A stretch of 64,000 nucleotides of DNA from Hellea sp. (GTDB taxonomy: Bacteria; Pseudomonadota; Alphaproteobacteria; Caulobacterales; Maricaulaceae), in assembly GCA_013002305.1 (NCBI GenBank), contig JABDKG010000014.1, forward strand, positions 1 through 64,000. Direction: 5' to 3'. Shown here one piece after another: positions 45,389-48,304 of this stretch. Within the stretch, counting starts at the first letter, position 1. Each line of letters starts with the position of its first letter. Position numbers and translations under genes: made by a program. The notes under the pieces were generated by a model that was given only the letters and a program-made list of their open reading frames with translations, was not told where the DNA came from and searched no databases.

Positions 45389-46243
45389 ATGAAAACGTTC
45401 TCTCGCAAAAATACAATGGCCGCCGTCGTTTTGGCAGCGGCAAGTGTTGGATTACCAACAACTACATTAGCCGACCCAGCTAATTCAGGCTATCGCTATG
45501 AAGAGTGCAAACGTCAGGATACAGAAAGCCAAATCATTGGCGGACTGGTTGGCGCAGTCGCTGGCGGTTTGCTCGGATCCGAAATTGCAGGACGCGGCGA
45601 TGGCACTGAAGGTGCTGCTGTCGGAGCAGCCTTAGGCGCTGCAGCCGGTATCGCCATCACAGATAGTGAATGTGACGAGCGTGGTCGACGCAGAGTCTAT
45701 TCTTCTAATACACGCTACCCTTCCAGCAATGCTTATGGCACCCGGACTTACCAAACCAGCCATCGCAGCCATTCCGGTTCGCGCAACCACGGATACAGCC
45801 ATCGTAGCGGTGGTTATTATGGCGGATCAAACAATTATGGCTACGGTAATTCAAATAATCGATATTACGGCAGCAATGGCGGTTATTACGGCGGCAACAA
45901 CGGATATTACGGCAATAATAACGGTTATTACGGCGGGTCACGCGGATATAATCGCGGTCACGGCTATGGTAACATCAACAGCTCACGCTGGGGCTATAAT
46001 GCCAGTTCCCATGTCTGCGGCGCAACTGAAACCCGCCTGCAACATATTGACTGGCAAATGAAAGAACTGCGCCGTGAACGTGATTATCTGGAACGTAAAC
46101 GAAAATATTCCGGCTATGATCGTCAGATCGACCAGCGTATGTGGCAGATTGGCGAAGAGCTTGCCCGTTTAAAGTATGAGGAAAAATCCCTCAAACGTAA
46201 CAAACGTCACTCAAATCACTATTATTATGATTATGACGACTAG
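45389..46243 (+). CDS. Secreted glycine-zipper protein with Tyr/Gly/Asn-rich linker
   Basis: The 284-residue protein has a signal peptide (1-28, ending LADP). A glycine-zipper pair follows (about 50-92: IIGGLVGAVAGGLLGSEIAG and AAVGAALGAAAGIAI), then a low-complexity zone of short Tyr-Gly-Gly/Asn repeats (about 110-205). The C-terminal 70 residues are a charged helix (RLQHIDWQMKELRRERDYLERKRK...) ending in a His/Tyr/Asp tail. Glycine-zipper 2TM domains occur in outer-membrane lipoproteins such as SlyB, but this one has no lipobox. It is the first of three related adjacent genes, each followed by its own hairpin. Confidence 0.8.
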   Translation: MKTFSRKNTMAAVVLAAASVGLPTTTLADPANSGYRYEECKRQDTESQIIGGLVGAVAGGLLGSEIAGRGDGTEGAAVGAALGAAAGIAITDSECDERGRRRVYSSNTRYPSSNAYGTRTYQTSHRSHSGSRNHGYSHRSGGYYGGSNNYGYGNSNNRYYGSNGGYYGGNNGYYGNNNGYYGGSRGYNRGHGYGNINSSRWGYNASSHVCGATETRLQHIDWQMKELRRERDYLERKRKYSGYDRQIDQRMWQIGEELARLKYEEKSLKRNKRHSNHYYYDYDD

Positions 46244-46277
46244 GGCGATTATCGCCTTCCCTTCCTAGGCGAATGTG

Positions 46278-46299
46278 GCCCGGCTTTGCCGGGCTTTTT
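46278..46299 (+). terminator. Rho-independent terminator
   Basis: A perfect 7-bp stem GCCCGGC/GCCGGGC with loop TTT (46278-46294) is followed by TTTTT. It ends the first glycine-zipper gene, 34 bp past its stop. Confidence 0.88.
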
Positions 46300-46443
46300 C
46301 GTGCGTGTGTATTAAGTGATTTACAGCTTCACCTCGCCCCTTCATGGTTAAGACGTGTCAGGATGGCCCAAACCAATACCGATAAAATGGCGAGCTTTTC
46401 GCAAATTTGGCACCAATGTTAGGCGAATAGGGAGCTAGAAAAC

Positions 46444-47511
46444 ATGAAACGATTTATCATAGGCGTAAGTACGGTGGCTATTATGGCCGTGCCCGCGACA
46501 GCAAGTGCACAATTTCAAAATATCGATACAGACGAAGTTTTAGGAACTTTGGCAGGGGCCGGGATTGGCGGAGCAATCGGCTCTAATCTTGCAGCCAATA
46601 ATACGCGCGACGAAGGCACGGCCATTGGCGCGCTTGCTGGAGGATTGATAGGATATGGCCTAACAAGCCGCGGAAATTCTCATTACGGTTCTTCCTATGG
46701 ATCGCGATACGGATCCCAGCACAGCGGCGGACATCATGGCAATCGATATATGGGTACCGGCTCTCGCTATGGATATCATTCTGGCGCCCGATATCAAGGA
46801 TCATCGCGATATGGCAATTCCTACAGCTATGGTTATCGATATGGCGGGCATTATGGCGGCGCTGTTGCGGCCCCTGTTATGCCAGCACCTCATGCTGTTC
46901 ACAGCGGGCATTATGTGACAAGCAGCTATGTCACGCAGCCGCAATATCGAACCGTCACGGTACATCGTCCGATTACAATTACAAAAAACGTGACAAAGAT
47001 GCAGGCGCATACTGTGCAAGTGCCGGTAACCGTTCAAACACCGCACTCGGTTCAGCGCGAAGTAACAGTGATGAAACCCGTCACCACGATGAAAGAAGTC
47101 ACGCGACAACGCGAAATTACGAAATCGCGGCCCATCAGCCGCACCAGAGAAGTCACGGTGATGAAACCTGTCACCGTCTTGAAGCCGGTAACTGTTATGA
47201 AGGAATTTACCGAATTGCAGCCTCAAACAGAGTTGCAGACTTATACCGATTACGAAAACTATACCGACTATGAAAGCTATACGGAAATGCAGCCGCAAAC
47301 CGAAATGCAGCCCCATACTGAGTATAAAACCGAAACAGTCATGAAGTCCGTGACGGAAATGCAGTCGAAAACAATTATGAAACCGGTAACGGTCCAGAAA
47401 ACCATTCACACAACCCAGCCTGAAACGATCCGTCAGCCGGTCGGTGAAGTCTACTGTTACAGCGGCAGTTCTGCCCAGTATGACGCGCAAGGTCTTAAGA
47501 TTAAATGCTAG
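46444..47511 (+). CDS. Secreted glycine-zipper protein with Thr-hexad repeat array
   Basis: The 355-residue protein has a signal peptide (1-22, ending ASAQ), a glycine zipper (about 34-72: LAGAGIGGAIGSNLA and IGALAGGLIGYGL), and a Tyr/Gly/Ser/His-rich linker (about 78-140). Residues 167-328 are 27 consecutive hexapeptides with Thr in 24 and Ser in two of the sixth positions; typical units are VMKPVT, ELQPQT and EMQPHT. The last 25 residues contain two Cys (VYCYS and the terminal KC). Strict alternation suggests a beta-structured stalk. There is no known family that I recognise. AGGGAG eight bases upstream supports the start. Confidence 0.82.
   Translation: MKRFIIGVSTVAIMAVPATASAQFQNIDTDEVLGTLAGAGIGGAIGSNLAANNTRDEGTAIGALAGGLIGYGLTSRGNSHYGSSYGSRYGSQHSGGHHGNRYMGTGSRYGYHSGARYQGSSRYGNSYSYGYRYGGHYGGAVAAPVMPAPHAVHSGHYVTSSYVTQPQYRTVTVHRPITITKNVTKMQAHTVQVPVTVQTPHSVQREVTVMKPVTTMKEVTRQREITKSRPISRTREVTVMKPVTVLKPVTVMKEFTELQPQTELQTYTDYENYTDYESYTEMQPQTEMQPHTEYKTETVMKSVTEMQSKTIMKPVTVQKTIHTTQPETIRQPVGEVYCYSGSSAQYDAQGLKIKC
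46942..47427 (+). repeat. 27 tandem 18-bp coding units (Thr-hexad array)
   Basis: The array is exactly 486 bp (27 x 18) without insertion or deletion. Each unit encodes x-x-[KQR]-x-x-T, with frequent VMKPVT. Nucleotide copies have diverged strongly while phase and the Thr codon are kept, which implies selection for the period rather than recent slippage. Confidence 0.85.
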
Positions 47512-47537
47512 TCTAACCCGATCGGAGTTTCGACCGG

Positions 47538-47572
47538 ACGGTCTGTCGGCATTGGCTGACGGGCCGTTTTTT
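47538..47572 (+). terminator. Rho-independent terminator
   Basis: A 10-bp stem ACGGTCTGTC/GACGGGCCGT (two G-T wobbles) with a 10-base loop is followed by TTTTT, 26 bp after the Thr-hexad gene. Confidence 0.8.
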
Positions 47573-47686
47573 ATGTGAGTCTAGTCTTTGATTATTGCGA
47601 TAAGTTAAGGCATATTAATGTTTATGGGGATCGAGACAGTGGAGCCGGGACGCACGCCTGTTACATAACCCTCATAGGAGAAAAAT

Positions 47687-48304
47687 ATGAAACTCAAATT
47701 TGGCCTCGTGATAGGCGCGGCAGCGGCAATGATTGTTGCTCCCATCACCGCTTCGGCCCATGATAATGGGTATCATCATCGTCACCAGAATAGCGGCGAC
47801 GAATTACTCGGTACCGCAGTCGGTGCCATAGCTGGCGGTCTTATTGGATCTGAAATTGCCGGACATGGCAATCGTAATGAAGGCGCTATAATTGGCGCTC
47901 TTGTTGGCGGCGCAGCAGGATATTCCATCGCCGATGGAAATCACAGCAATTACCGTCACCGCGGAAACACTTACTACGGAAACGGATATAATAACGGCTA
48001 CTATAATAATGGTTATTATAATGGCAGTTATAGCGGTGGGTATTCGTCAGGAGGTTACTACAATACTGGCCACTACCCGAACTATTATAATAATGGCTAC
48101 TATTCTCGGCCCAATTATTTCCAGACAGGCTACAGCCAGCCCTATTATGCCGGAAACTATTACCGCCGCCCTGGTTTGACCATTTCATTGGGATCAAATC
48201 GTCAATATCGGCCTCGATATTATAGTAATAATTATAACAGCCATTACCGCCCGCGCAGTAATAATCGACATCGTCACGTTCACAACAGATCTTGCCGGCA
48301 CTAG
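47687..48304 (+). CDS. Secreted glycine-zipper protein with Tyr/Asn/Gly-rich tail
   Basis: The 205-residue protein starts at ATG 47687, behind AGGAGAA. It has a signal peptide (1-24, ending ASAH), a glycine zipper (about 40-82: LGTAVGAIAGGLIGSEIAG and AIIGALVGGAAGYSIA), and a tail dominated by Tyr, Asn and Gly (units such as NNGYYNNGYY). It ends in a basic His/Arg-rich stretch with one Cys. The zipper is closely similar to that of the gene at 45389 (GGLxGSEIAG), so the two are paralogues. The tail could bind wall polymers, nucleic acid or metal; this is speculation. Confidence 0.8.
   Translation: MKLKFGLVIGAAAAMIVAPITASAHDNGYHHRHQNSGDELLGTAVGAIAGGLIGSEIAGHGNRNEGAIIGALVGGAAGYSIADGNHSNYRHRGNTYYGNGYNNGYYNNGYYNGSYSGGYSSGGYYNTGHYPNYYNNGYYSRPNYFQTGYSQPYYAGNYYRRPGLTISLGSNRQYRPRYYSNNYNSHYRPRSNNRHRHVHNRSCRH

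Follow-up and report, generated by a model that had tools for sequence, protein, structure and literature searches.

The window, a 64,000-nucleotide stretch of DNA from Hellea sp., encodes a glycine-zipper protein whose hexapeptide array is predicted to form one giant self-complementary antiparallel β-hairpin. Judging from sequence patterns and structure models together, we give this reading a probability of about 0.7. The array repeats strictly in units of six residues and is divided into two arms of matched length. Blocks of one arm face blocks of the other, and the peptide pattern is under selection.

Domain organization and the hexad array

The elements of the window protein and its neighbouring genes are listed in Table 1. 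A preliminary description of this DNA, made from the sequence alone, had called the product a secreted glycine-zipper protein, and database comparison bears this out. The PF05433 match over residues 33-71 scores 28.3 bits, above the curated Pfam cut-off of 24.2, and chain 7ojf_A of SlyB matches residues 19-83 (E 3.8e-5) in a PDB sequence search. AlphaFold2 (AF2) places the zipper helices at residues 29-50 and 55-77 with low confidence. The C-terminal tail is 25 residues long and contains the only cysteines of the protein, C338 and C355. Three consecutive glycine-zipper genes occupy positions 45389-48304 of the window, and similar groups of two or three are found at other loci of the family (L010, L013, L021, and L022).

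Table 1. Features of the window protein gene and its neighbours (positions in the window)
Feature	Position	Strand	Basis or remark
Whole gene, 355 aa	46444..47511	+	Signal peptide, glycine zipper, Gly/Tyr/Ser linker, predicted hexad hairpin, two-Cys tail
Probable Sec signal peptide, residues 1-23	46444..46512	+	Sequence reading; ends ASAQ, without lipobox Cys
Glycine-zipper 2TM domain, residues 33-71	46540..46656	+	PF05433 E 1.6e-6; SlyB 7ojf_A
Gly/Tyr/Ser/His-rich linker, residues 78-166, length varies	46675..46941	+	Alignment of eight genus proteins; AF2 pLDDT below 50 as far as residue 165
N-arm, mainly basic: hexads 1-13, residues 167-244	46942..47175	+	
N-arm K/R block, hexads 10-12 (RQREIT KSRPIS RTREVT), faces the D/E/Y block	47104..47157	+	
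Conserved tip VLKPVT VMKEFT, residues 245-256, basic-to-acidic junction	47176..47211	+	AF2 turn 246-254
C-arm, mainly acidic: hexads 16-27 plus two residues, residues 257-330	47212..47433	+	
C-arm D/E/Y block, hexads 17-19 (ELQTYT DYENYT DYESYT)	47230..47283	+	
C-terminal two-Cys tail, motif CYSGSSAQYD...C	47434..47508	+	Variant form in array-less relatives
Neighbouring glycine-zipper gene, 284 aa	45389..46243	+	PF05433 E 5.1e-6
Neighbouring glycine-zipper gene, 205 aa	47687..48304	+	PF05433 E 9.4e-8

The array (residues 167-328; 46942-47427, + strand) consists of 27 gapless hexads, of which 24 end in Thr, two in Ser, and one in His, exactly as previously counted. In 100,000 shuffles of the residues, no more than 16 Thr ever fell in a single phase, so that the observed 24 was never attained. 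The underlying DNA comprises 27 units of 18 bp with no identical adjacent units, and hexad-final Thr is encoded by all four codons (ACG 8, ACC 7, ACA 6, and ACT 3), in agreement with the earlier statement that the units are of exact length with diverged codons. Adjacent units display a pS of 0.78 and a pN of 0.46. The array is mostly basic through residues 245-256 and mostly acidic thereafter, with a mixed stretch near the base. This division into a basic and an acidic arm, together with the tip and the mirror-image order described below, had been missed in the preliminary description.

The arrays of the eight genus proteins, including the window protein, contain 27, 29, 29, 39, 41, 45, 49, and 49 hexads. 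The period is unbroken in all eight, each array comprising complete hexads and two additional residues. Every hexad count is odd, which the hairpin would account for and which could also be due to chance. The Thr ladder described earlier holds in the window array but is interrupted in relatives. Thr closes 260 of the 308 genus hexads, and the others end in E (17), Q (14), S (5), K (4), I (4), A (2), H (1), or M (1). Likewise, the hexad forms that had been named as common, VMKPVT, ELQPQT, and EMQPHT, occur just twice, once, and once in the window protein, but EMQPHT (49/308) and VMKPVT (30/308) are indeed common genus-wide.

Within the 308 hexads, Pro occupies position 4 in 179. Charged residues are absent from position 2 and make up 67% of position 3. 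Residue identity is 0.00-0.05 at odd lags and 0.07-0.14 at lags 2 and 4, a pattern suggestive of two alternating faces, as in a β-strand. Because six is an even number, each hexad would show the same two faces. One would be formed by positions 2, 4, and 6 (M/P/T, mostly neutral), and the other by positions 1, 3, and 5, which carry most of the charge.

When the window protein is compared with its seven orthologues, the array has the lowest dN of five regions in six cases (0.19-0.22). Only L010 departs from this, with 0.39 in the array versus 0.37 in the zipper. The dN/dS ratio of the array is 0.05-0.16 in the five comparisons where it is defined, rough values with dS near or past saturation. 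Because the codons are scrambled while array dN is low, the peptide pattern of the array is selected. The synonymous and non-synonymous comparison thus agrees with the earlier proposal that the period and the Thr ladder are under purifying selection.

No Pfam or NCBIfam family scores above cut-off over the array, as anticipated by the earlier remark that no named family with its layout is known. Sub-threshold matches overlapping the array, such as those to DHX37_C (E 1.3) and EntB (E 0.17), are weak. The PDB sequence search leaves the array unmatched; its two matches, to SlyB and weakly to prion (E 0.3), lie at residues 19-96, confined to the zipper region and just after.

Matched arms and facing hexads

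Arm lengths were measured between three homologous anchors at the start, tip, and end of the array. The outer anchors of the genus proteins were fixed before the AF2 result, and the tip anchor and all sister-genus anchors after it. The N-arms of the eight genus proteins are 84, 90, 126, 120, 138, 150, 150, and 90 residues long, and the N-arm exceeds the C-arm by exactly four residues in each of them (8/8). In the sister genus g13, the offset (N minus C) is -5 in all five proteins, with arms of 97/102 residues in four and 115/120 in L056. Both arms of L056 are thus 18 residues longer than those of the other four, representing one length change in g13. When the genus arms are re-paired, a constant offset is kept by 4 of 8! 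(40,320) arrangements, or ~1e-4, and the chance becomes 4e-4 if the close pair L008/L009 is counted once; both figures ignore relatedness. The 13 proteins are related, and their tree is mostly unresolved, with one of six inner branches supported.

The two arms also carry matching landmarks. All 13 proteins (8 genus and 5 g13) have a single copy of the junction motif, at the tip. The landmark VQR[AE]VT of one arm faces EYK[ST]ET of the other at an equal pair number in all seven proteins that possess both, at pairs 7, 8, 14, 13, 16, 18, and 18 from the tip. These landmarks are missing from L010 and the g13 proteins. Near the base, the order is reversed in six of the eight genus proteins (L004-L009), where an EMQPHT-type hexad in the N-arm faces VMKPVT in the C-arm. 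The reversed order is missing from L010, and in the window protein KMQAHT faces IMKPVT at this place.

Blocks of K/R and D/E/Y hexads face each other next to the tip. Their hexad counts are equal in six proteins (3/3 in the window protein, 4/4 in L004, 8/8 in L010, 3/3 in L012, 3/3 in L051, and 6/6 in L056), and the acidic block is longer by one in the other seven (3/4 in L005, L006, L008, L009, L048, and L050; 2/3 in L007). The rule for counting blocks was written after the hexad lists had been viewed; the arm-length counts are independent of it.

Facing hexads tend to be of complementary charge. Among 142 facing pairs in the eight genus proteins, 88 are of opposite and two of like net charge, the remainder having a neutral member. 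Both like-charged pairs belong to the window protein. Of 17 registers compared, the predicted one has the best mean charge product, and none of 5000 pooled permutations of the C-arm was as good. The signal is broad, with a score of -0.99 at register +1 versus -1.02 at register 0. Adding one pair at the base of each protein yields 90 opposite and four like of 150 pairs in the genus; counted in the same way, g13 has 45 opposite and nine like of 83. Within single proteins, the permutations as good as the observed order number 1112 (window protein), 376, 10, 21, 28, 0, 7, and 608 of 5000 in the genus, listed as in alignment A1. The g13 proteins, listed as in alignment A3, give 29, 98, 300, 141, and 0 of 5000. 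The charge permutation is not significant for the window protein (1112/5000), L010 (608), L004 (376), or L050 (300).

The predicted pairing can also be followed residue by residue. The number of Thr residues that directly face another Thr is highest at the predicted register, with 123 such pairs in the genus versus 104-105 one hexad off, and 77 in g13 versus 48-54. Charge complementarity between directly facing residues is modest, with 29 opposite and 17 like of 908 residue pairs in the genus and 25 opposite and nine like of 524 in g13. A strong charge signal is found at the diagonal offset of -2 (144 opposite and 6 like of 892).

Predicted fold and competing explanations

Two AF2 models were computed. 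Model 1 is based on alignment A1 of the eight genus proteins and shows two antiparallel strands, residues 168-245 and 255-332. The pLDDT is 80-86 in ten-residue blocks of both arms, 64-65 in two blocks around the turn, and below 50 nearly everywhere outside the array. Model 2 is based on alignment A3 of the five g13 proteins, with L012 in the first row. L012 has the same sequence as the protein encoded at the H. balneolensis locus L087, lacks a zipper, and has an array 49% identical to the window array (alignment A2). Its predicted strands comprise residues 37-139 and 147-249, with a pLDDT of 83-89 in most blocks and lower values around the turn (58-77) and at the base (71). Both models are centred on the same homologous tip Thr: paired residue numbers sum to 500 and 286, placing the centre at residues 250 and 143. 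The pTM is low for both (0.22 for model 1 and 0.25 for model 2), a result that a thin rod would give, but an incorrect model would as well.

We know of no experimental structure of a giant β-hairpin. Foldseek found no convincing structural relative of either model in the PDB; at E 0.001, model 1 has no match and model 2 has one, a phi29 collar entry (E 7.4e-4, TM-score 0.10). A search of the viral library BFVD with model 2 returned four matches below E 0.001, two of which are uncharacterised ORFs of herpesvirus 6. From these two we suspect that other repeat ORFs too are modelled as long hairpins, a possible warning on AF2. AF2 can invent confident folds for perfect repeats, with a documented bias towards solenoids (PMC11795689). 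Because it is known to give confident solenoids for such sequences, the models are not taken as the foundation of the case for the hairpin.

Several properties of the array would suit an intrinsically disordered protein, a charge-patterned spring or mesh former, comparable to titin PEVK or to a cytoskeletal repeat rich in valine, proline, and charge, in which the matched halves reflect overall charge balance only. The composition is rich in V, P, K, E, and T, and the eight genus arrays carry net charges of -1 to +5. The frequent Pro at position 4 (179/308) is unusual for a strand and counts against the hairpin, and AF2 confidence is unreliable on repeats (PMC11795689). Disorder is nevertheless unlikely. 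The net charge of the g13 arrays ranges from +4 to -14, yet the arm offset is still -5 in all five, and charge balance needs neither the mirror order, nor the facing landmarks (7/7), nor the whole-hexad period (8/8). It is slightly less probable again that the arms pair between molecules, either in an antiparallel strand-swapped dimer or through hairpins that assemble side by side as a sheet or tube. Such pairing would leave covariation identical to that of a hairpin, and glycine zippers oligomerise. Hairpins of TraT, moreover, join their neighbours into a continuous sheet (PMC12658005). Against pairing between molecules stands the conserved junction motif located at the turn, once in 13 of 13 proteins, and the frequent position-4 Pro would be expected to interfere with hydrogen bonds between the edges of neighbouring hairpins.

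The preliminary description had proposed a β-solenoid with stacked Thr or an extended stalk. Extended β structure is consistent with the AF2 hairpins; the solenoid is improbable. In left-handed hexapeptide helices, three hexads form one 18-residue coil, and the six-residue period of the array would allow the same construction. Three of the eight genus counts are multiples of three hexads (27, 39, and 45), and similarity at a lag of three hexads is slightly above that at two in L007 and L009 and equal to it in L008. However, the remaining five counts would not make up whole coils, the EMQPHT half lacks an aliphatic ladder, and both models are hairpins, against the bias of AF2 itself. Nor does a solenoid account for the lockstep lengthening of the arms, as a hairpin does. 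The mirror-ordered halves also recall a nucleic-acid stem, and selection could in principle act on an RNA or DNA hairpin. This is hardly credible: when the RNA of the window array alone is folded, only two of its 131 base pairs match the register of the protein, an equal or better fold is obtained from 35 of 100 synonymous shuffles, and synonymous sites are near saturation.

Relatives, known systems, and a proposed role

A single-protein query with the window protein returned 33 stretches and no relatives, and an alignment query returned 12 loci. Ten of these are from Hellea, including one from H. balneolensis DSM 19091, and two from uncultured Caulobacterales; their proteins coincide with the 12 relatives obtained from the genome scans, and with the window, the set comprises 13. 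A full orthologue with the array is present in eight of ten genus genomes, the window's own included. Of the other two, G003 has the zipper and the Cys tail with the array absent, and G005 has no match. The array profile matches 15 of 137 family genomes, namely eight of the genus, five of g13, G003, and G138. The last two match only the end of the profile, where the tail lies (positions 198-244 and 177-244). In samples of the order, class, and phylum, matches are found in 6 of 398 genomes (all within the same family), 5 of 385 (the window's own and four others), and 8 of 398 (the window's own and seven others), respectively. Class and phylum matches outside the family were mostly judged to be wrong-frame or low-complexity. 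At the search sensitivity used, the array is thus seen in two genera only.

Four of the matched loci (L070, L097, L100, and L103) seem to be genuine ORFs, each containing a different kind of repeat. L070 (G582), from another family of the class, has a likely signal peptide and a six-residue repeat of NINKNI / VYKPVT type that is possibly convergent. Hexad-like repeats matched by the array profile are also found in L097 (G912; ADKPVT/VDKPVT), L103 (G954; VPVTET-type), and L100 (G993; AMKPAD). Mirrored basic and acidic arms were not seen by eye in these three.

In g13, the array forms a separate secreted protein without a zipper (L012/L087, L048, L050, L051, and L056). A pair of Cys lies close to either end of this protein (in L012, 27/30 and 263/271), as if disulfides at the base clamp the hairpin. 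A separate array gene was not found in the window's own genome. H. balneolensis also encodes a zipper-plus-tail protein, L088, with a middle that differs from the array; the zipper-plus-tail relatives L017 and L088 carry Cys-containing middle repeats of CPSGTT or CPAGTT type. In L092, L093, L016, and L018 (G086, G074, G036, and G025), the hexads are replaced by an array of VDRPVVKEV / EKIVEKPVVQYVDR type. These proteins are composed of zipper, linker, array, and, where the contig reaches, a CYxxSxxRYD-type tail, and their arrays look alveolin-like by eye. The filling of the same slot by other repeats in related genomes suggests that its exact sequence is replaceable.

The window protein shares its N-terminal helix-pair domain with the SlyB / Rickettsia 17 kDa antigen family (PF05433), but lacks the lipobox Cys, and PF05433 is uninformative on the array. 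To our knowledge, SlyB and 17 kDa antigen proteins have no repeat ribbon. TraT, a surface-exclusion protein of conjugation, lies in the outer membrane, uses two α-helices, and has a hairpin at residues 180-205, which sits on a globular core in a homodecamer (PMC12658005). The window protein would likewise be an outer-membrane two-helix protein with a β-hairpin, a likeness that is drawn from its predicted fold and proposed location. Unlike the hairpin of TraT, its predicted strands and those of L012 are 78 and 103 residues long, built from hexads, and coreless. Alveolins, the IMC1 proteins of alveolates, are valine/proline-rich, with a consensus EKIVEVP within 12-residue repeats (PMC12465100). 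They resemble by eye the replacing arrays of G025, G036, G074, and G086. They differ from the window array in being eukaryotic and cytoskeletal and in their period of 12, and basic/acidic mirror halves are not seen in the portions of PMC12465100 on which this comparison draws. The alveolin Pfam profile does not match the window protein up to E 10.

Titin PEVK-type elastic polyampholytes share the composition and the charge blocks of the window array, being rich in P, E, V, and K. Their repeats are loose, longer, and disordered, and PEVK is not known to have a strict even period or matched arms. SasG/Aap-type β-rods, which consist of folded domains, and hexapeptide left-handed β-helices, which are three-sided coils with a six-residue repeat, are likewise elongated β-rich rods, but neither is a two-stranded hairpin. 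Planctomycete YTV repeat proteins are secreted and T/V-rich; the YTV repeat is absent from the Pfam matches of the window protein up to E 10. Searches of the open-access literature for giant, longest, or rod-like β-hairpins yielded nothing comparable. The hairpin itself is a known structural element, and we know of no precedent for unit-by-unit pairing of hexads with lockstep length change.

The window protein is best read as a putative glycine-zipper-anchored envelope protein with a predicted self-complementary β-ribbon stalk and a conserved tip. The basic arm, made of VMKPVT- and KxRPVT-type hexads, would run out and turn at the tip, V[ML]KPVT-VMK[EP][FV][TI]. The acidic arm, made of EMQPHT- and DYESYT-type hexads, would return in register, so that the hexads of the two arms face one another in mirrored sequence. 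In the resulting pairing code, VMKPVT would face EMQPHT, KxRPVT would face DYESYT, and Thr would face Thr. Position-4 Pro would lie on the outward edges, where no backbone NH is needed, and may discourage side-by-side aggregation. A ribbon of this kind would be ~26 nm long in the window protein (78 residues per strand at 0.33 nm per residue) and ~50 nm in the longest orthologue (~150 residues).

The glycine-zipper helix pair probably anchors the ribbon in a membrane, most likely the outer membrane by analogy with SlyB. The Gly/Tyr linker would provide slack, and the two-Cys tail may close the base of the ribbon. The whole would act as an envelope-anchored spacer that keeps the conserved tip at a distance from the base. 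Because array length varies while the tip stays constant, a role in presenting the tip is favoured. The ribbon may point outwards or into the periplasm, both being allowed; TraT is an example of an outer-membrane protein with two helices whose bulk is exposed on the outside (PMC12658005).

A broader claim, to which we attach even odds, is that complementary hexads pair unit by unit like a nucleic-acid stem, in ribbons of up to ~150 residues per arm, and that units are gained or lost in both arms with the register kept, over a more than 1.7-fold range of length, so as to constitute a repeat-protein class of their own. If this is true, the β-hairpin, usually a small element, could be stretched by a two-sided repeat into a rod tens of nanometres long. 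The two halves of the array would have to co-evolve in copy number, which gives a directly testable pairing code, and a design rule for long non-aggregating β-ribbons would follow. For the Hellea-like marine bacteria, which are prosthecate, it would provide a lead on the architecture of the cell envelope.
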